From the NCBI GenBank assembly GCA_945957605.1, contig CAMFLR010000003.1, forward strand, positions 496,001 through 560,000: a DNA stretch of 64,000 nucleotides, in the 5' to 3' direction. The translations under genes were made by a program, and so were the position numbers. Positions 14,137 to 45,343 of this stretch are shown here, in pieces (position 1 is the first letter of the stretch; every line of letters begins with the position of its first letter). The notes beneath the pieces are model-generated. The model made no database searches and was not told the DNA's origin. It worked only from the letters and a program-made list of their open reading frames with translations. The stretch comes from an uncultured Isosphaeraceae bacterium. GTDB lineage: Bacteria > Planctomycetota > Planctomycetia > Isosphaerales > Isosphaeraceae.

Positions 14137-14931
14137 GTGGCCGACATTCTTTCATTCGCCATCGTGGGCGCTACCGGGCGCATGGGCATCCGGTTAATTC
14201 AACTGATCGACGCCGATCCGTCGCTCAGTCTGGGAGCTGCCGTCGACCGGCCCGGTCATCCTTCGATCGGGCAGGATATCGGTCCCATTGCTGGTCTACC
14301 TTCGCTTGGCGTCGCGCTCGCTGCTGAGCTCGACGCCAATGCGAAGGTGGACGCGTTGATCGACTTCTCCGCGCCTGCTGGATCAGTGGCGATCAGCAAG
14401 GTTTGCCGCGAACGCGGAATTCCTCTAGTGGTAGGCACGACCGGTTTGGAGCCTGAGCAGAAGGCGGAAATTGAGACCGCGGCCGATCGCATTCCCGTGC
14501 TGATCTCGCCGAATCTCAGTCGCGCCGTCAACTTGCTCATGAAACTTGCGGGAGTGGCCGCACGTGCGCTGGGGGAGACGGCCGATATTGAAATTGTCGA
14601 GCGCCATCATGTGAAGAAGAAGGACGCCCCGAGCGGGACCGCCCTTCGACTCGCCGAAATCATTTCGCGCGAGACGGGTTTCACGACACTCACCCATGGC
14701 CGTGAAGGTCTCGTCGGCGAACGCCCGCGAGCCGAAATCGGCATGCATGCATTGAGAACGGGTGATAACCCCGGTGAACATACGGTGGTTTTTGGCCTCA
14801 TGGGCGAGTGTTTAGAATTATCACATAGAGCGCTAAATCGAGACGGTTTTGCCCGTGGAGCGTTGGACGCAGCGCGGTTTTTGGTCGGAAAACAACCAAG
14901 GCTGTATTCAATGGTTGACATCCTTGGTTGA
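14137..14931 (+). CDS. dapB: 4-hydroxy-tetrahydrodipicolinate reductase
   Basis: NAD(P)H-dependent reductase of the diaminopimelate/lysine pathway, 264 residues, normal for the family. Motifs: N-terminal FAIVGATGRMG nucleotide loop, DFSAPAG, VVGTTGL, SPNLSRAVN, and the substrate motif ERHHVKKKDAPSGTAL with the catalytic His/Lys. I place the start at GTG 14137 (VADILSFAIVGATG), because a longer reading to an earlier ATG would overlap thrC and add non-conserved sequence. Its presence implies meso-DAP synthesis, consistent with peptidoglycan in planctomycetes. Follows thrC in a likely operon. Confidence 0.93.
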   Translation: MADILSFAIVGATGRMGIRLIQLIDADPSLSLGAAVDRPGHPSIGQDIGPIAGLPSLGVALAAELDANAKVDALIDFSAPAGSVAISKVCRERGIPLVVGTTGLEPEQKAEIETAADRIPVLISPNLSRAVNLLMKLAGVAARALGETADIEIVERHHVKKKDAPSGTALRLAEIISRETGFTTLTHGREGLVGERPRAEIGMHALRTGDNPGEHTVVFGLMGECLELSHRALNRDGFARGALDAARFLVGKQPRLYSMVDILG

Positions 14932-37508: not shown

Positions 37509-37559
37509 TGGGGGACCTTTGAGGAAGGCGTGGGAGAGAGGGTTTTCTTGATTAGGATA

Positions 37560-37748
37560 GGAGTTACGCATTTGGTTCGGACATGAGGTCGAATCGGGTG
37601 GCCGGGACAACTCGTTGTCCCGGTCGCGAAGCGACAAGAGGAGATCGCAAACTGTTCTGCTTTGGCCTCTTGTGACTGCGTCACCTGGACAGCAAGTTGT
37701 CCAGGCAACCCGGTTCTATGCCTTGCTTTGTGCCAAATGTGTAACTCC
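37560..37748. repeat. Dispersed MITE-like repeat, copy 1
   Basis: 189 bases with 16-base terminal inverted repeats GGAGTTACGCATTTGG (37560-37575) and CCAAATGTGTAACTCC (37733-37748), one mismatch. The inner core 37596-37711 starts GGGTGG and ends CAACCC and contains the hairpins CCGGGACAA-CTCG-TTGTCCCGG, TCGC-GAA-GCGA and CCTGGACA-to-TTGTCCAGG. No coding frame of its own. The right end lies three bases after the stop codon of the adjacent TPR gene. Confidence 0.8.
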
Positions 37749-37751
37749 TCA

Positions 37752-39539
37752 TTAACCTTCGGATTCGGCCAAGCGTTCGAGCAGGACGGTTGTCTCGCGG
37801 GCTGCTTCGTCGTTCTCCTCGGCGTCGGCAAGCTCGAGCGTCAGTTCGGCGAGCGTTCGGGCGTGATCGGCGTAACCGGCGTCGTAAAGCGTGGTTGCGC
37901 CGTCGTACGCGATCCAGGCCGGGGTGTCGGCTCCAGGCTGTTGGCCAGATTCGGCCAACTCGCGGTAGATCTCGGTTGCGGCGTCGGGTTGTTCGAGGCC
38001 GCAAAGCAACTCTGCTTTCCAGACGGTGAACTCGGCGTAAAGTTCGCCGTCGCCAAAAGTCTGATCGAGGTCGATCGCCTGATCGATCCGACGTTGGGCC
38101 AACTCTTCATCGCCGTCGGCAATCGCCGCGCGGATGAGCGGGGCGAAGAGGTCCTTGAGATTTACCGCTTCGAGAACGCTTGGCTTGCGATCGACGAGCA
38201 CCGAGGCGAAACGCACCGTGCGGGAGTCGTTGCCAAGCGCGGCGGCGGATTGGAATGCTTCGACAAGTGAATGATCGTCGAGGGTACCTGGGTCGATCGA
38301 GTCGAGCTCGCTGCCGCTCATGCTGCCGGTTTCTTCGGCATTCACGGCGTCGGGATTATCGGGCTCGATTCCCAGACGCTTGCGCAGACGGTCGAAGGGA
38401 TAACCCTGATAAAGCTCAACCGAGCCGGGGCGGGCGGCGAGTTCTTCGCGAATCGCGATTGTGGCAGCGAGTCGGGCGCGAGTGGGGGCGTCGGTCTTTT
38501 GTGCGGCTTCGAGCGGGGAGAGGTTGAGCAGACCGGCCCGCTTGATGTTGATCCAGCGGTTTTCGTAATAATCTTCGACGTTTTCGCGATAGAGCCGGTG
38601 ACGATCATCCTCATTCACCCACTCGGGGATGCGAATCGTCCAGACGGCCGCGTCGAGCATCGGCAAGGGGAGGGGAGTGCGGGTGATTTGCAGGTCGGGC
38701 GCGAGCGATTGCAGCGTCGCGGCGACTTTCCAGAAGCTCGAGGCATCAGGCGAAGACACGCGGAAGACGTTGTCCGATGAGAGGACAAGCCCCAAGACGC
38801 GCGGGAGTTCGGCGAGCGTGTGCGTCGTCCCCGAGTTTTCGGGCCAGGGGCGATCGAGCCATTCGTCGACGTGAATATCGCCGTGATCGCGCGGGCTGGG
38901 AAGGCGGCGAAGATATTCTCGGCGTTTCAGTTGTTCATAGAGTGTTTTGGGCGACGTGTGCTCGGTTTTGCCCAGGTCGACGGCGTCGCTGAACTCGTTG
39001 GCGTACGGCTCGGCGCCGGCCCCTTGGCGAAGAATCTCGCCGAGCTTTGCGGCCTCGACGGCGCGATCGAAGTCGGTCTCGGCGGCAAGTTCGGTGACGC
39101 GATGCAGATCGCCGATCGCTTCGGGCCGGCCGAGCCATGCGAGGCATAGGGCGCGGTTTTCTAACGCGTCGATGTCGTTAGGTGTTTCGGCGATGATCTC
39201 GCTGAATGCGTCGATTGCGTCAGGAAGCGCACTAAGGTCGCGGCCGGCGAATTTTTCGCTCCAGCGGGTACGGGCTTCGGCGGACGTAGGGTTGCGAAAC
39301 CGGCGCTCCTTGCGGGCGGTTTCGGGGAGTTCGTCGGCCGATTTGAGGTGGTCGAGGGCTTGTTGCGCAGCGCGGTCGTCGGGAGAGAGCCGAAGTGCGC
39401 GTTGCCAGCTTGCCCACGCGGCGAGGGGCCGCTGGAACTTGAGATGCGCCCACCCTTCGTGAACGAGGGCGAGTACCTGGCTGGCGGCGTCGTTGGCCGA
39501 ATCCTGCGACATGGAGCGTCTGCTTTCCGCTGTCATCGA
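37752..39539 (-). CDS. TPR-containing protein of unknown function
   Basis: About 595 residues, cytosolic by appearance (no signal peptide). N-terminal part has TPR-like segments (VLALVHEGWAHLKFQRPLAAW marks residues 19-39; DAIDAFSEIIAETPNDIDALENRAL). The centre (ELPRVLGLVL, then a segment with NLSPLEAAQKTD and FDRLRKRLGIEP) resembles the centre of the next SEC-C protein. The C-terminal third has more TPRs. ATG 39539 is used; ATG 39512 is possible; neither has a clear ribosome site. Longer frames would read through the repeat element. Flanked on both sides by copies of the same repeat, 3 bases beyond the stop and about 12 bases before the start. Confidence 0.7.
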   Translation of the reverse strand, partial: SMTAESRRSMSQDSANDAASQVLALVHEGWAHLKFQRPLAAWASWQRALRLSPDDRAAQQALDHLKSADELPETARKERRFRNPTSAEARTRWSEKFAGRDLSALPDAIDAFSEIIAETPNDIDALENRALCLAWLGRPEAIGDLHRVTELAAETDFDRAVEAAKLGEILRQGAGAEPYANEFSDAVDLGKTEHTSPKTLYEQLKRREYLRRLPSPRDHGDIHVDEWLDRPWPENSGTTHTLAELPRVLGLVLSSDNVFRVSSPDASSFWKVAATLQSLAPDLQITRTPLPLPMLDAAVWTIRIPEWVNEDDRHRLYRENVEDYYENRWINIKRAGLLNLSPLEAAQKTDAPTRARLAATIAIREELAARPGSVELYQGYPFDRLRKRLGIEPDNPDAVNAEETGSMSGSELDSIDPGTLDDHSLVEAFQSAAALGNDSRTVRFASVLVDRKPSVLEAVNLKDLFAPLIRAAIADGDEELAQRRIDQAIDLDQTFGDGELYAEFTVWKAELLCGLEQPDAATEIYRELAESGQQPGADTPAWIAYDGATTLYDAGYADHARTLAELTLELADAEENDEAARETTVLLERLAESEG

Positions 39540-39550
39540 AGTCACGTACT

Positions 39551-39729
39551 GGATGTTAGACACATGGAGTAATGGGGTGGTTGAGACAGCTTTGTTGTCC
39601 CGGTCGCGAAGCGGCAAAAGGTTCACACAGACAGTTCTGCTTTCCCCTCCTGTGGCTGCGCCACCCGGACAACAAAGTTGTCCGGGCCACCCAATCCTAT
39701 CCATCTCCTTGTGCCAACGGCATAACTGC
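39551..39729. repeat. Dispersed MITE-like repeat, copy 2
   Basis: About 179 bases. The core 39575-39692 matches copy 1 along its length (shared run TTGTCCCGGTCGCGAAGCG) and has the perfect hairpin CCCGGACAA-CAAAG-TTGTCCGGG. The outer ends (GGATGTTAGACACATGG on the left; CCAACGGCATAACTGC on the right) are degenerate versions of the copy 1 terminal repeats, so the limits are approximate. Confidence 0.75.
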
Positions 39730-39818
39730 GATGTCGTTTCCACAGAAAGAAGGGGGTAGCCCCATCAGACCTGGGGCTACCCTTGGATATTACAGTCGAA
39801 CGTGCGAATCCAGCCGAT

Positions 39819-42080
39819 TTATCGGCCCGGAATGATCAACTTCGGCTTGTCGCCACCTGCTGCAGGAGGCGGCGAGCCGCCGGGTGTCCAGATGCCGCCG
39901 GACGAGGAACCACCGCCCGCCGAGGCGCCGGGGGTCCAGATCTCGCCCTTGCTTGCGGCGACGCCAAGCTGACCCGAAGCGGTCGTCACACGCGGGCCGT
40001 ATTCGGCCATGAGCGTTTGAAGCCCACGCGGGTCGATCATGATCTCACCCGGGTTGTCGGGGTTCGGCACAGCCTGCAACAGACCCATTTGCATCAGGCT
40101 GAGCATGATGATCTGGCTGGCGTTCTGGTTCTCGCGATACCGTTCGAGAACGATCGCCAGTTCGGGCACCCAGACTTCGGGCTTGAGCGCCTTTGCCTTG
40201 AGCATCACCTCGAACATATCCCACGCCGGCGCGTTGTATTGCCGTTGTGCGGCGGGTTCGATTTCGCGGCCTTCCTTGACGACGGCGAGCGCGGCGTCGA
40301 GTCCGTTGGCCTCTTCCTGATAGGCTGCGAGATCGGAGTAAACCGTGCGAACGAGCCGTTGTTCTCCGATGAAGTCGCGTCGCGTGGCGAGCTCCTGGGC
40401 CGCTCGTTTCGCAGCCTGGGGCATGCCGTTCTGCTTCGCTCGTGCGAAGTAAACGACGAGTGCTTCGTTCTCGAGCTTTTCAACGGCGACGTAGGCAAAT
40501 CGCGCGAGCGGCAGCGTTTCGATGATGTCGGCAGTCGCGGGGTCGACCGCGGGCTCGCTGGGAATATTCAGCGAAGCGCGGAAGGCGGGCATGTCGATCG
40601 GCGCCTTGCTCAACTGCTGCTGGTACTCGAACTGGCAGAAGGCAGCACGAAGCGGTACTTCAGCGTCTCCCGCCCTCGCCGCTTGTTCGGGGGTGCGGTA
40701 GTTGAGGTAGGGGATCTTGAGCGTCGGCCAGACTTCGCGAACCAGGCGCGACTGCTCCTGGTCGGTCAGGCGACGCAGTTCGGCCGCTTCGATCTCTTCG
40801 GGCGGCTGCCATTCCCAGGAGAGCGAGAGGCTGTAGCGCGAGTTGTGGCCGAGGACCTTGGTTTTGGGATGCGCGGGAGGAATTGCCGCGCCTGCGAGGG
40901 CGAGCAGTTTGTCCTTCACCGCGTCGAGCTTGCCGTCGTCGTCACCTTCGAGTGCGACGATTTCGTTGCCTACCGCAACACGGCAGAGGACGCGAGGGAT
41001 CTGTGAGCTGACGAGATCCTTGCCGCTCTGCGCTGCGAGTGGAGCGCGATCGAGGAAGACGAAGTGATCGACGGTCGGTGAGTCCGGATCGAACGGGTCG
41101 ATCGGTCCGCGCTCGTCTTCGATGATGTCCTTTTGCTCGCGAAGCGACGTGAGCAGGCCGTTGCGATTGCGGAGCGGCCAGATGAGCTGAACGTGCTCGA
41201 CCTTGTCGCTCGATCGCGGCGGGCTGATGATCTGGCAAAGCGCTTCGAGGTCGACCGCGTCGGCGCTAATGCCCATCTTGCTGATCGCGAGTCGCAGATA
41301 GTGTGCGGCGGGGGCATCTTCGGCGAGGAACAGCCTGCAGAGGCCCAGGTTGCGATCGGCCTCGGGGCCTGAGATGTCTTGCGAAAGAAGCTCGAATGCC
41401 GCCGCGGCCGATGACCAGAGACCTGCGCGAGCCCAGTCGACGGCTTCGGTGAATCGCGTCGCGACGTCGGCGGCAAGGCCAGCGGGGGCGTCGGCGAAGG
41501 TGTAGTCTTCCTTCTGCCAGGGCAAAACGGTCGGCGTGCTGAGCAGGCCTGATTCGAGCTGGTCGAGCCGCTCGTCGTTTTCCTTGTTGAATTTGAGCGA
41601 TTGCGCGAGGCGCACGTGCGCGAGGGCGGCGGGATAGTGCTCGAGGCGGACGAGCAGACTACCCACAATGCCGATCATACCGCCGAGACCCTTGCGCTCG
41701 GCTTCGGTGACGGCTGAGAGCGCGGTTTGGGCTTGCGCGACGCCGGCCATCGGCCCTTCGGTTTCCAGCACGCAACGAATGAGAAGTGCGTGGGCGGAAA
41801 CGTGTTGCGGCTGGCGCGAAAGAAGTTCGCGCAGGCTCGCCTTGGCTTCCTCGGGCTGGCCGGTGCGGATGAGGATGAGCGACTTGCGAATCAAGAGCCA
41901 GGCGTTGGCCGGTTCTTTTTTGAGGCCGTCGTTAAGAACTTCGAGGGCGCCTTCAGTTTGGCCGGTTTCGTACAGTCGCTGAGCCCGATCGGCGTACGAC
42001 TCCATCTTCTGGCAGCACCACTTGAACTTCTGACCGCTGCCGCAGGGGCACAAGGCATAGGGGTCGACAGCCGCCATCAC
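39819..42080 (-). CDS. SEC-C motif protein with TPR repeats
   Basis: A 753-residue cytosolic protein. The N-terminus is a zinc-binding SEC-C motif (CPCGSGQKFKWCC at about residues 11-23), as at the end of SecA. Residues 30-290 are TPR-like (AQRLYETGQTEGALEVLNDGL). The central region has IPRVLCRVAVGNEIVALEGDD, YLNYRTPEQAARAG and MPAFRASLNIPSE, the same order as in the neighbouring TPR protein, so the two are distant paralogues. The C-terminus is a Gly/Ser/Pro linker with two copies of GxIWTPG and ends KPKLIIPGR. SEC-C suggests ribosome or chaperone contact (inference). Two start codons are adjacent (42080, 42077). Confidence 0.8.
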   Translation of the reverse strand: MMAAVDPYALCPCGSGQKFKWCCQKMESYADRAQRLYETGQTEGALEVLNDGLKKEPANAWLLIRKSLILIRTGQPEEAKASLRELLSRQPQHVSAHALLIRCVLETEGPMAGVAQAQTALSAVTEAERKGLGGMIGIVGSLLVRLEHYPAALAHVRLAQSLKFNKENDERLDQLESGLLSTPTVLPWQKEDYTFADAPAGLAADVATRFTEAVDWARAGLWSSAAAAFELLSQDISGPEADRNLGLCRLFLAEDAPAAHYLRLAISKMGISADAVDLEALCQIISPPRSSDKVEHVQLIWPLRNRNGLLTSLREQKDIIEDERGPIDPFDPDSPTVDHFVFLDRAPLAAQSGKDLVSSQIPRVLCRVAVGNEIVALEGDDDGKLDAVKDKLLALAGAAIPPAHPKTKVLGHNSRYSLSLSWEWQPPEEIEAAELRRLTDQEQSRLVREVWPTLKIPYLNYRTPEQAARAGDAEVPLRAAFCQFEYQQQLSKAPIDMPAFRASLNIPSEPAVDPATADIIETLPLARFAYVAVEKLENEALVVYFARAKQNGMPQAAKRAAQELATRRDFIGEQRLVRTVYSDLAAYQEEANGLDAALAVVKEGREIEPAAQRQYNAPAWDMFEVMLKAKALKPEVWVPELAIVLERYRENQNASQIIMLSLMQMGLLQAVPNPDNPGEIMIDPRGLQTLMAEYGPRVTTASGQLGVAASKGEIWTPGASAGGGSSSGGIWTPGGSPPPAAGGDKPKLIIPGR

Positions 42081-42317
42081 TCGCCGTCCTGATAATAGAA
42101 AAAAGATGCGTTCGGCATGCGCCTCGAAACGATCACAGTAGCAAAACGCCCGCGGCGGCGTCTATCCTGAGACGCGATCGCACACCGGTGATTCTCCGGC
42201 ATGAATCGTGCCGCTGCAACGACCTTTTACCTCCTTTAATATTGTCATATCAGGCGCGCCAATTGCCTCTCGGGCGCGCGGTCGGCTACGCTGATGGCGG
42301 GACATTCGCCAGGCGGG

Positions 42318-42338
42318 AACTTTCCGGTCAGGAAAGTT
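42318..42338. promoter_or_regulatory. Inverted repeat ahead of the S1/P1 nuclease gene
   Basis: AACTTTCC-GGTCA-GGAAAGTT: an eight-base dyad 27 bases before the ATG at 42365. Position fits an operator or a 5' leader hairpin. Confidence 0.4.
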
Positions 42339-42364
42339 GTTGATCAATCCTTTTGTGAGGTTTC

Positions 42365-43192
42365 ATGTTTCGCGCATCTCACATCAAATGGCGGTTCACG
42401 CTGATGCTCGCCGTTGCGAGCCTGTTCGCAGCCGCCGGCACCACGTTCGGCTGGGGACGCATAGGCCATCGCGCCTCGGCGCGGCTCACGGATTCACTGC
42501 TCACACCCAAGACGAAACAGGCCATCGCAGCGATTCTCGACAACGGCGAGTCGCTGGCCGACGCCTCATTGTGGCCCGACGAACACCGTCGCGACATCCC
42601 CGAATCATCGCCATGGCATTATGTGAACGTGCCGATCACCGCGAGCGCGTACGACGCGAAGTATTGCCAGCAAGGCGGTTGCGTGATTTCAAAGATTGCC
42701 GATTTCCGCAAGCAACTCGCCGATCCGGCCGCGACGCCTGCCCAGAAACGCCTCGCGCTTCGGTTTCTCGCCCACTTCGTGCAGGACATGCATCAACCCG
42801 TCCACGTAGGCGATCGGTCCGACCGCGGCGGTAACGATTTGCAGCTTCAGTTTTTCGATCAGGGAACGAACCTGCACCGGCTCTGGGATTCAGGTTTGCT
42901 GGAAAAAGGCGGCTTCGACGAAGCGGCGGTGTTCCAGCGGCTGCAAGCGCGATTGACGCCGGAATACCGTGCGTCGGTGACGTTTGGAGCCGTTGAGTCC
43001 TGGGCGAACGAGAGCCTCGCGGCTGCTCGAGATGCTTACGTAGATCCTGCGACCGGAGCGGCGCTCAAGCCAGGAACGAAGCTCAGTCAGCCATATCTGT
43101 CCAAGAATTTGCCCGTTGCCGAGGATCGCGTGATGCGATCGGCCGTTCGGCTGGCGTGGATTCTCAACGAGACGTTTGATCCCAGCAAGTGA
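42365..43192 (+). CDS. S1/P1 family zinc nuclease, exported
   Basis: A 275-residue secreted single-strand nuclease/3'-nucleotidase. The signal peptide (MLAVASLFAAAGTTFG within residues 13-28) ends just before WGRIGH, so the mature N-terminal Trp can coordinate zinc as in P1 nuclease. Further zinc ligands: ASLWPDEHR, SPWHYVNVP, HFVQDMHQPVHVGDRSDRGGNDLQ and LHRLWDSGLL. The full trinuclear-zinc set is visible. Likely releases phosphate or nucleosides from extracellular nucleic acids (inference). Its promoter region contains an 8-base dyad. The gene is convergent with terC (19 bases between stops). Confidence 0.93.
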   Translation: MFRASHIKWRFTLMLAVASLFAAAGTTFGWGRIGHRASARLTDSLLTPKTKQAIAAILDNGESLADASLWPDEHRRDIPESSPWHYVNVPITASAYDAKYCQQGGCVISKIADFRKQLADPAATPAQKRLALRFLAHFVQDMHQPVHVGDRSDRGGNDLQLQFFDQGTNLHRLWDSGLLEKGGFDEAAVFQRLQARLTPEYRASVTFGAVESWANESLAAARDAYVDPATGAALKPGTKLSQPYLSKNLPVAEDRVMRSAVRLAWILNETFDPSK

Positions 43193-43211
43193 ACAAACGA
43201 CGCCGGGTTCG

Positions 43212-44060
43212 TCAGGTCAGGAATTCTTCTTCCGTGATCTGTTTCGACTCGGCGGCACTCTTCCGGGGCCGGTAGGCAAGACTCGCGGCGACGATCAGCG
43301 CCATGCCGGCCCAGAAGACCCAGGGATTCATCTCGAGCGGCAAGTCGAACGCCCAACCGGGAACCTTGGTGTGCCAAGAGGGGGCCGGGCCCTTCTTCAG
43401 GTCGGGATGAAGAGCGTCGTGGAAGCCGCTGCCGACGAGTTTCAGACCGATCCAGGCGACGAGATAATAGGCGCCTGTCGCGAGCGCGGTGAATCGGTCG
43501 AGCAAGATGAGAAAGTAGCCGGCGACGAATCGCATGGCGACGATGCCGAGAATCCCGCCCAGATAGACGATGAACAACTTCATCGTGAAATCAAAGTTGC
43601 CAAGCCTAAACGCAGTGCGGCTCGCAACTTCGGCAGGAATTCCCCCAGCCATCGCCACAGCTGCGACGATCGAGTCGATCGAGAAGGCGATATCCGCGAT
43701 CTCGACGCCGATCACCGTTCCCCAGAACCCGCTGCCGAACCGGGACTTCTTGTTTCCGTCGGATTCTTCTTCACCGAAGAGAAGATGTGCGATGGCCAGG
43801 TAAAGGAGGTAAACTCCCCCGACGACCTTGAACGACCAGTATTCGAGCAGTGCAGACGCGAAGATGACGGCGATCAATCGAAAGCCGAACGCGCCGATGA
43901 TTCCGTAACGAAGCGCTCGTTTTTGCTCGTCCTTGGGCAGGTGCCGCACCATGACGGCGAGCACCAGCGCGTTATCCGCGCTCAAAAGGCCTTCGAGAAA
44001 GACGAGCGTGGCGATCGTTCCCGAAATGAGGCCAAGTTCCGCGAGGTTCAAGCCCCACAT
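43212..44060 (-). CDS. TerC family integral membrane protein
   Basis: A 282-residue inner-membrane protein with seven or more TM segments. The family hallmarks are FLEGLLSADNALVLAVMV near residue 23 and VEIADIAFSIDSIVAAVAM near residue 125; the acidic residues within these TM helices are thought to bind Mn2+ or another divalent ion. TerC/Alx proteins export manganese or load it onto exported proteins. Between TM3 and TM4 is a charged loop (GEEESDGNKKSRFG). ATG 44060 has AGGAG nine bases upstream. I checked the leader for the yybP-ykoY manganese riboswitch often found with this family and did not see a convincing core. Confidence 0.88.
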   Translation of the reverse strand: MWGLNLAELGLISGTIATLVFLEGLLSADNALVLAVMVRHLPKDEQKRALRYGIIGAFGFRLIAVIFASALLEYWSFKVVGGVYLLYLAIAHLLFGEEESDGNKKSRFGSGFWGTVIGVEIADIAFSIDSIVAAVAMAGGIPAEVASRTAFRLGNFDFTMKLFIVYLGGILGIVAMRFVAGYFLILLDRFTALATGAYYLVAWIGLKLVGSGFHDALHPDLKKGPAPSWHTKVPGWAFDLPLEMNPWVFWAGMALIVAASLAYRPRKSAAESKQITEEEFLT

Positions 44061-44311
44061 TCAAGACGACTCCTGACAGCACGCGCAAGGTGGGTCACTG
44101 AATGAATATCCGGTCAGGCTGAAGCATCTCAACAGTAGGCCGCCCAGGGCAGTGCCCCAAATGCGGATCAGTCAAGCTACCAAACTCTTGTGCGATTGAC
44201 GACCCTCGTGTCACTCTCAATTGAACAGATTGGCAAAGACGAGATGCTTGACCTATCCGGTTATTCGTCATCGTGGCGCAAATCTGAGGTCGCAAGGGAG
44301 ATTCTTGGCCG

Positions 44312-45103
44312 ATGAATCGAACCACGACATCTCTGCTCGTCGCGGCGCTCGCCATCGGCCTTGGATCCGTCCTGACGACGAATACGAAAGCGCAGGCGCC
44401 CAACCAGTCGCCACCTCCTCAAAAGCCGGTACCTGTCCCGCCAAAGCCCGCGCCTGCGAAGCCGAAAGCGAAGGACATCGAGCCCAAAGTGCTTAGCGCC
44501 GAGGAAATGGCGAAGCGAGCAAAATCGGCGTCTTCGCTTTTGAATCCTACGGGAACATCGGACAAGTACAGCGAGGGAGTGCCGTTTCTGGAACTTCCAC
44601 CCTGGCGACAGACGACATTTTACGGGATTCGCGCAGAGGCTCAAAGAATTGTTTATGTCGTCGATTGTTCCGGAAGCATGGAGGACGATGCGTGTCTGGT
44701 GCGTGCCAAACGCGAATTGCGGCGGAGCGTGGAAGGATTACAGTTTCCGCAACAATTCACGGTGATTTTTTACAACGACGGCCCACTCATGATGCCCGGT
44801 GGCGCGATGCGAACCGTGGACACGGCGTCAAAAGACGGACTAACGGCGTGGCTTCGCCTGATCGAGCCCGACGGTGGAACTGATCCCCGCGCCGCAATGC
44901 GCACCGCGATTGGCCTTAAACCCGACGTGATCTTTCTCCTTTCCGACGGACTCTTTCCCGACGGCACGGTTGAAGATATCACCGCGCGTAACAAGAACAA
45001 GATTCCTATTCACTGCATCGATCTCTCGGCCGGGCTGGGTGGCGACCAGCTTAAACGTATCGCTGAATCGTCGGGCGGGAAGTATGCGCCGCGTGCACGT
45101 TGA
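44312..45103 (+). CDS. Exported VWA-domain protein
   Basis: A 263-residue protein. Residues 1-27 are a signal peptide (LLVAALAIGLGSVLTTNTKAQA). A Pro/Lys-rich linker (PKPAPAKPKAKDIEPK) leads to a von Willebrand A domain from about residue 110: IVYVVDCSGSMEDD supplies the MIDAS DxSxS, PDGGTDPRAAM the conserved Thr, and LLSDGLFPDG the final Asp. So divalent-metal-dependent protein binding outside the cytoplasm is likely. This domain layout is common in planctomycete surface proteins. A GGGAGA ribosome site precedes ATG 44312. Copy 3 of the dispersed repeat starts nine bases after its stop. Confidence 0.87.
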   Translation: MNRTTTSLLVAALAIGLGSVLTTNTKAQAPNQSPPPQKPVPVPPKPAPAKPKAKDIEPKVLSAEEMAKRAKSASSLLNPTGTSDKYSEGVPFLELPPWRQTTFYGIRAEAQRIVYVVDCSGSMEDDACLVRAKRELRRSVEGLQFPQQFTVIFYNDGPLMMPGGAMRTVDTASKDGLTAWLRLIEPDGGTDPRAAMRTAIGLKPDVIFLLSDGLFPDGTVEDITARNKNKIPIHCIDLSAGLGGDQLKRIAESSGGKYAPRAR

Positions 45104-45111
45104 TTCCATTC

Positions 45112-45298
45112 GGAATTACACACTCGAGGAGTGATCAAAAGGAGTGACGGGTGGCCGGGACAAATTGCTTGTCCCGGTCGCGAAGCGACAGGAGGCGATT
45201 GCGATCTTTTACGCTTTGCCCTCATGTGGCTGCACCACCTGGATAACAAGTTGTCCAGTCCACCCAGCCCATTCCGTTCTCCGAACCGCGCAACTGCT
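45112..45298. repeat. Dispersed MITE-like repeat, copy 3
   Basis: About 187 bases. Core 45149-45265 begins GGGTGG, ends CCACCC and contains CCGGGACAA-ATTG-CTTGTCCCGG-type and CTGGATAACAAGTTGTCCAG hairpins; it shares TTGTCCCGGTCGCGAAGCG with the other copies. Outer ends GGAATTACACACTCGAGG and CGCAACTGCTG are weakened terminal repeats, so the limits are approximate. It occupies most of the gap between the VWA and VOC genes. Confidence 0.75.
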
Positions 45299-45343
45299 GT
45301 TTCGTGGATTCTTAAACGTTTCTAAACTCACTGGCGCCTGGAT

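Follow-up and report, generated by a model that had tools for sequence, protein, structure and literature searches.

The three repeats in the window (the whole 64,000-nucleotide stretch analysed, G000:C3:496001-560000) are members of a family of ~80 copies in one planctomycete genome (8.84 Mb in 33 contigs), and each is a composite whose outer part is an IS701-type MITE and whose inner part is a REPIN, a doublet of GT[AG]G-tagged REP units. Very probably, a REPIN was caught in an IS701-type MITE and spread by an IS701-type transposase, and its REPs were kept afterwards. REPINs, RAYTs and MITEs are all known; it is the combination of a REPIN in a MITE that is new, and we found no precedent in the open-access literature for this combination or for IS701 target duplications. 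The family would mean that an unrelated transposase can spread a REPIN, and it bears on the old question of whether REPs persist through copying by a RAYT or through a need of the cell. The two are separable here: the ends, linker and target duplications serve as an internal clock, by which the insertions are old and their REP units hardly changed.

The first-pass annotation had described three copies in the same orientation, sharing an invariant run. All three were confirmed, with limits refined as in Table 1; the run TTGTCCCGGTCGCGAAGCG is exact in 3/3, the repeats have no coding capacity, and the ORF map puts every copy between likely genes. Searching the genome for a 19-base core with up to three mismatches returned 111 matches (3 for a reversed-pattern control), and with up to one mismatch 74 (0 in the control); overall, the core occurs in 54 exact and ~30 near copies, against 1-3 in the control. 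A search with copy 1 as query gave 125 candidates, of which 40 were scored and proved homologous (40/40); several matched on both strands, the element being palindromic. Family copies occur in both orientations across the genome. Since the core is matched genome-wide, the three window copies are not a mere local duplication, which excludes an objection that the annotation itself had raised. One such event may have occurred elsewhere: two elements 165 bp apart with an identical linker (L041; G000:C6:371238 and 371403) look as if they arose by local tandem duplication and were partly deleted.

Table 1. Composite elements in the window and their parts (window positions)
Feature	Position	Strand	Remarks
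Copy 1, complete composite (REPIN flanked by IS701-type ends)	37558..37750	+	alignment, folding, TIRs
Copy 1 left TIR, TAGGAGTTACGCATTTGG	37558..37575	+	start identical to TIR of the IS at C30
Copy 1 REP unit A (GGGTGG tag, hairpin, GTCGCGAAGCGAC hairpin, CAAGAGG tail)	37596..37641	+	
Copy 1 linker, 24 bp	37642..37665	+	
Copy 1 REP unit B, inverted	37666..37711	-	
Copy 1 right TIR	37733..37750	-	
Copy 2, complete element, decayed TIRs	39536..39731	+	flanks TGTCA / TGTCG, a 4-of-5 target duplication
Copy 2 REP unit A	39575..39621	+	
Copy 2 REP unit B	39646..39692	-	
Copy 3, complete element, decayed TIRs, target duplication gone	45110..45299	+	
Copy 3 REP unit A	45149..45195	+	
Copy 3 REP unit B	45220..45265	-	

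We aligned 79 complete elements of ~193 bp each. At the centre of the element is an inverted pair of 46-bp units with a 24-bp linker between them, and this 116-bp REPIN part is enclosed by outer arms of 39 bp that end in the terminal inverted repeat (TIR) TAGGAGTTACGC. Each unit is built from GGGTRG, a perfect hairpin, a small hairpin and CAAGAGG; an element thus has four local hairpins, and not the three first reported. The consensus of the 79 aligned elements reads TAGGAGTTACGCACTTGGTATTGGACACAAGGAGGAATT / GGGTGGCCGGGACAACTTGTTGTCCCGGTCGCGAAGCGACAAGAGG / ATATCGCAAACTGTTCCGCTTTGC / CCTCTTGTGGCTGCGCCACCTGGACAACAAGTTGTCCAGGCCACCC / AATCCTATCCATTGCGTTGTCCCAACCGCGTAACTCCTA. Information per base is ~0.3-0.9 bits in the arms, mostly 1.5-2.0 in the two 46-bp units, lower again in the linker and near zero outside the TA ends, and the steps are sharp, falling exactly at GGGTGG and CCACCC. 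Unit A is headed by GGGTGG in 55/79 elements and by GGGTAG in 24/79. The inverted unit B is present at 81 of 101 core matches, with a spacing of 50 or 51 bp in 78 of the 81. Short forms with arms and a single hairpin also occur (L100, L102, L109 and L113). One of them (L102; G000:C6, ~14594-14720) combines TIRs and an exact 5-bp duplication (GAATT) with a left arm almost identical to that of window copy 1, features that suggest a younger subfamily. In copy 1 itself the TIRs, first given as 16 bases with one mismatch, extend to 17 nt (94% complementary), and those of copies 2 and 3 are decayed, as had been noted. The claim that copy 1 is the youngest holds for the TIRs only: its flanks, TAGGA and ATTAA, contain no target duplication, and copy 2 keeps 4/5 bases of one.

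When the TIR was sought at sites lacking the core, one intact 1074-bp insertion sequence (IS) was identified at C30, with the TIR TAGGAGTTACGCGATTRG and an exact flanking 5-bp duplication, AAGGA. Its transposase of 332 aa scores 372 bits against the NCBIfam model transpos_IS701_2 (NF049921; cut-off 250). The TIR TAGGAGTTACGC is common to this IS and the repeats, with an identity of 12 bp, and the TIR (~18 bp) is all that the two share. Four further copies of related IS in other genomes have an identical TIR start and exact 5-bp target site duplications (TSDs). The repeats carry traces of the same register: in the 39 best-ended copies of the set with up to three mismatches, the 5 bp just outside the TA match at 94/195 positions, compared with ~54 expected from re-paired flanks (permutation p = 5e-5). 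Exact 5-bp duplications are left in 3/66 aligned copies (L009, TGATT; L032, AATCA; L070, TAATG), and copies whose TIRs are well preserved frequently lack one. The TA itself, considered as a Tc1/IS630-like target duplication, was rejected: it is part of the TIR, and the duplicated bases are the 5 bp that follow it. The repeats were thus correctly suspected of being non-autonomous mobile elements, for which the IS at C30, with a transposase, the same TIR and the same duplication length, is the autonomous partner. The competing suggestion of a structured repeat is also right, its structure being the REP hairpins of a RAYT system; both readings are true because one composite element carries both.

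REPs are recognised by a GT[AG]G tag adjoining a hairpin, and RAYT cleavage in tested systems requires this tag to a varying degree (PMC8266576; PMC6006769); inverted REP doublets are termed REPINs, and their movement by RAYT has been proposed (PMC3116915). The core had been said to belong to no named family; its exact sequence indeed gave no Rfam match when the window was searched, but as a GT[AG]G-tagged REP doublet it is of a named kind. A structure-only REP search found 37 units in 849 kb, a sample partly picked from repeat-rich contigs so that densities are biased, and 0 in a reversed control. These units fall into several classes that differ in hairpin letters and are constant in build. 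IS701-like arms surround none of the units of other classes (0/7) and most units of the element's class. Conversely, the 849-kb sample has nine pairs of TIRs no more than 400 bp apart, and eight of them enclose a REP hairpin; the ninth is likely a chance pair. Since the TIR pairs enclose REP hairpins and the other REP classes are armless, the composite is the unit that spread.

The start of a RAYT gene at C13 (model NF047646) lies ~8 bp beyond a copy of the element, and a solo REP of the same class follows closely downstream. The gene scores below the NF047646 cut-off and carries a frameshift just before the tyrosine region, beside an A-rich run (L114:3297-3683; G000:C13:6296-6682); either the cognate RAYT is dead or the assembly is wrong at this point. 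Given the score and the frameshift, maintenance of the REPs by this RAYT is doubtful.

To see how the parts of the element have aged, one can compare them within the same copies. Pairwise identity averages 0.47 in one arm, 0.52 in the other and 0.57 in the linker, whereas the REP units reach 0.87-0.93, the high values including stretches that were not used in finding copies; the target duplications match at ~0.43-0.48 of positions. This contrast between arm and REP exists inside every copy and so cannot be created by selecting copies on their core. Arm and REP identity show no positive correlation (r = -0.19), and REP similarity is unlinked to arm similarity (Mantel r 0.00 and 0.03), although arm relationships are near star-like and give this comparison low resolution. 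By the clock of arms, linker and duplications, the insertions are old, yet the REPs were kept; judged from these identities, the REPs seem to have been maintained after insertion.

The changes that did occur in the REPs point to what is conserved. Double changes that preserve pairing number 26 in hairpin A of REP B (6.1 in shuffled data), and 7 and 3 in the small hairpins (0.5 and 0.1 shuffled); hairpin A of REP A is too uniform to judge. At one stem pair, T-A occurs 47 times, C-G 18, A-T 4 and G-C 2. Besides this pair, the substitutions commonly seen are A/G, both in the tag (GTGG/GTAG) and in the tail, and T/C in the loop, and there is no linkage among variant sites except between paired bases, which makes them tolerated states and not block haplotypes. 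Copy 1 as a whole also folds as one long hairpin (z -10.4). This 190-nt palindrome was rejected as a maintained structure, as it shows no covariation: its arms have 155 double changes compared with 190 when shuffled, and its head and tail pairs are at chance. Compensatory changes, proposed at the outset as a check, are thus found in the local hairpins and not in the long palindrome. We read this pattern of substitutions as selection on the local hairpins; the main rival reading is exchange between units.

In that rival, the REPs would be uniform through exchange between copies (gene conversion, perhaps driven by RAYT) and not through selection on each copy. It would account for the missing link between REP and arm similarity, and for the fact that the two-state variants (loop T/C, tail A/G) are common to units A and B. 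However, exchange of blocks should give linkage disequilibrium within a REP, of which there is none except at paired bases, and units A and B retain distinct small hairpins; we therefore regard it as unlikely.

If selection acts on the hairpins, their covariation equally suits a family of single-stranded DNA or of RNA, and one may ask whether the whole family is a structured regulatory RNA, such as an mRNA-end or attenuator element, that resembles a mobile repeat by chance. Its extragenic position, with 21/29 copies between co-directional genes and 3/29 between divergent ones, would fit as well as the covarying local hairpins do. Yet the copies lie in both orientations and come with target duplications, a matching IS and a RAYT; G.T mismatches (41) are about as frequent as A.C mismatches (30), with no sign of one transcribed strand; and no Rfam match was found. 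An RNA origin is therefore quite improbable, whereas a regulatory RNA could still be a secondary role.

Another possibility is that a RAYT alone spreads the element, in which case the arms would be conserved surroundings of a REPIN and their likeness to IS701 ends a coincidence. The proposed movement of REPINs by RAYT (PMC3116915) and the presence of the same REP class beside RAYTs in several genera speak for it. It leaves unexplained the 12-bp TIR identity with an IS701-type IS and the same 5-bp duplication register, and the armless REP classes are fewer in the sample. Enzymes of the IS200/IS605 type are known to make no target duplication; the duplication register has already largely refuted this account, which we hold to be very improbable. 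Finally, it is very improbable that old MITEs were later invaded by young REPINs at the same site, with REPs conserved in appearance through youth, for while this would explain the conservation step at the REP borders, the linker, though internal to the REPIN, has decayed almost as far as the arms (0.57 vs 0.47-0.52) and the likely chance pair is the one TIR pair found without a REP.

A composite spread by an IS701-type transposase thus remains the preferred reading. In the course of events that we envisage, a REPIN of the class of the C13 RAYT would once have been trapped between IS701-type ends. The composite would then have spread mainly as a MITE, mobilised in trans by an IS701-type DDE transposase, to ~80 mostly intergenic sites. 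The IS at C30 is a single, intact copy and the MITE copies look old, so a lost relative may have run the burst. After insertion, the arms, linker and target duplications have decayed to about half identity, with the REP units still at ~90% and changes in the latter mostly limited to tolerated states: GTRG, T/C in the loop, A/G in the tail and any Watson-Crick pair at one stem position. Selection on the local hairpins, as single-stranded DNA or RNA, probably kept the resident REPs, exchange of units being a less likely keeper. More tentatively, and with rather less than even confidence, we suggest that a REPIN population gave up its own transposase and hitch-hiked on a DDE transposase, that its hairpins then came to be used by the host, and that selection now keeps ~80 REP pairs in dead MITE shells.

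The family resembles several known systems. REPINs/BIMEs with RAYT (TnpA-REP) transposases (PMC3116915, PMC2817692, PMC8266576) likewise have a perfect hairpin with an adjacent GT[AG]G tag, an inverted doublet with a less conserved spacer, an extragenic location and a cognate RAYT flanked by the same units; unlike them, the doublet described here is enclosed by DDE-type TIRs with a 5-bp target duplication, and each unit adds to this a second small hairpin and the tail CAAGAGG. The GTAG-tagged REPs surveyed in Planctomycetes and other phyla (PMC3733652) share the tag, the palindrome, the several classes per genome and the RAYT neighbours, but the parts of that survey consulted here describe no REP inside an IS-type MITE. 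With IS701-type insertion sequences (NF049921, transpos_IS701_2) and MITEs derived from them, the repeats share the TIR TAGGAGTTACGC and the 5-bp duplication, and are noncoding; they differ in carrying a REPIN, whose conservation far exceeds that of the element's own ends. ERIC, NEMIS/Correia and RUP, which are MITE-like, are also palindromic intergenic repeats of ~100-200 bp without genes. We know of no inner REP doublet or cognate RAYT in any of these three.

Amplification is specific to the source lineage. The one other genome of the same genus lacks the core, and 5/43 further genomes of the family contain it once or twice; among other public genomes, two planctomycete records have one exact core each, and no RAYT was recognised near either. 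The IS701-type transposase is present in 10 other genomes of the family, including that of the same genus. REP units are strongly extragenic, with an ORF cover of 0.26 compared with 0.88 at random, as judged by a crude ORF caller with which a minority of units overlap predicted ORFs. For the 29 copies that have long flanks, the genes on either side are co-directional at 21, convergent at 5 and divergent at 3 (92, 42 and 44 for control gaps), so that a lean away from divergent promoters is suggestive only.

Relatives of the RAYT in four other genera of the family (G012, G039, G040 and G042) are flanked by REP units of the same build, and in three of these genomes (G012, G040 and G042) the sole near-exact core match adjoins the RAYT. 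A more distant RAYT (L207; G002:C251) is followed by two REP-like units of different build (GGGTGGCCGTGGTGGAACACCACGGGCGG...), 85 bp apart. In the source genome, other IS200-like genes with high IS200-family scores lie at C17, C20 and C27, and a second RAYT, at C10, has HVH, WQ and YMHQNP motifs (read by eye) and is flanked by REPs of another class. Also at C10, REPs of two classes lie between a RAYT and an IS4-type transposase gene (DDE_Tnp_1; L115:5400-5510; G000:C10, ~136.4 kb), and this site is another contact between the two transposon systems. At a further site (L056/L133; G000:C29, ~7.2-7.6 kb), a copy of the element neighbours a mixed inverted pair made up of REPs from two other classes, AGGTTCTCGAACCT and ACCGGTTCTTGAACCGGT.
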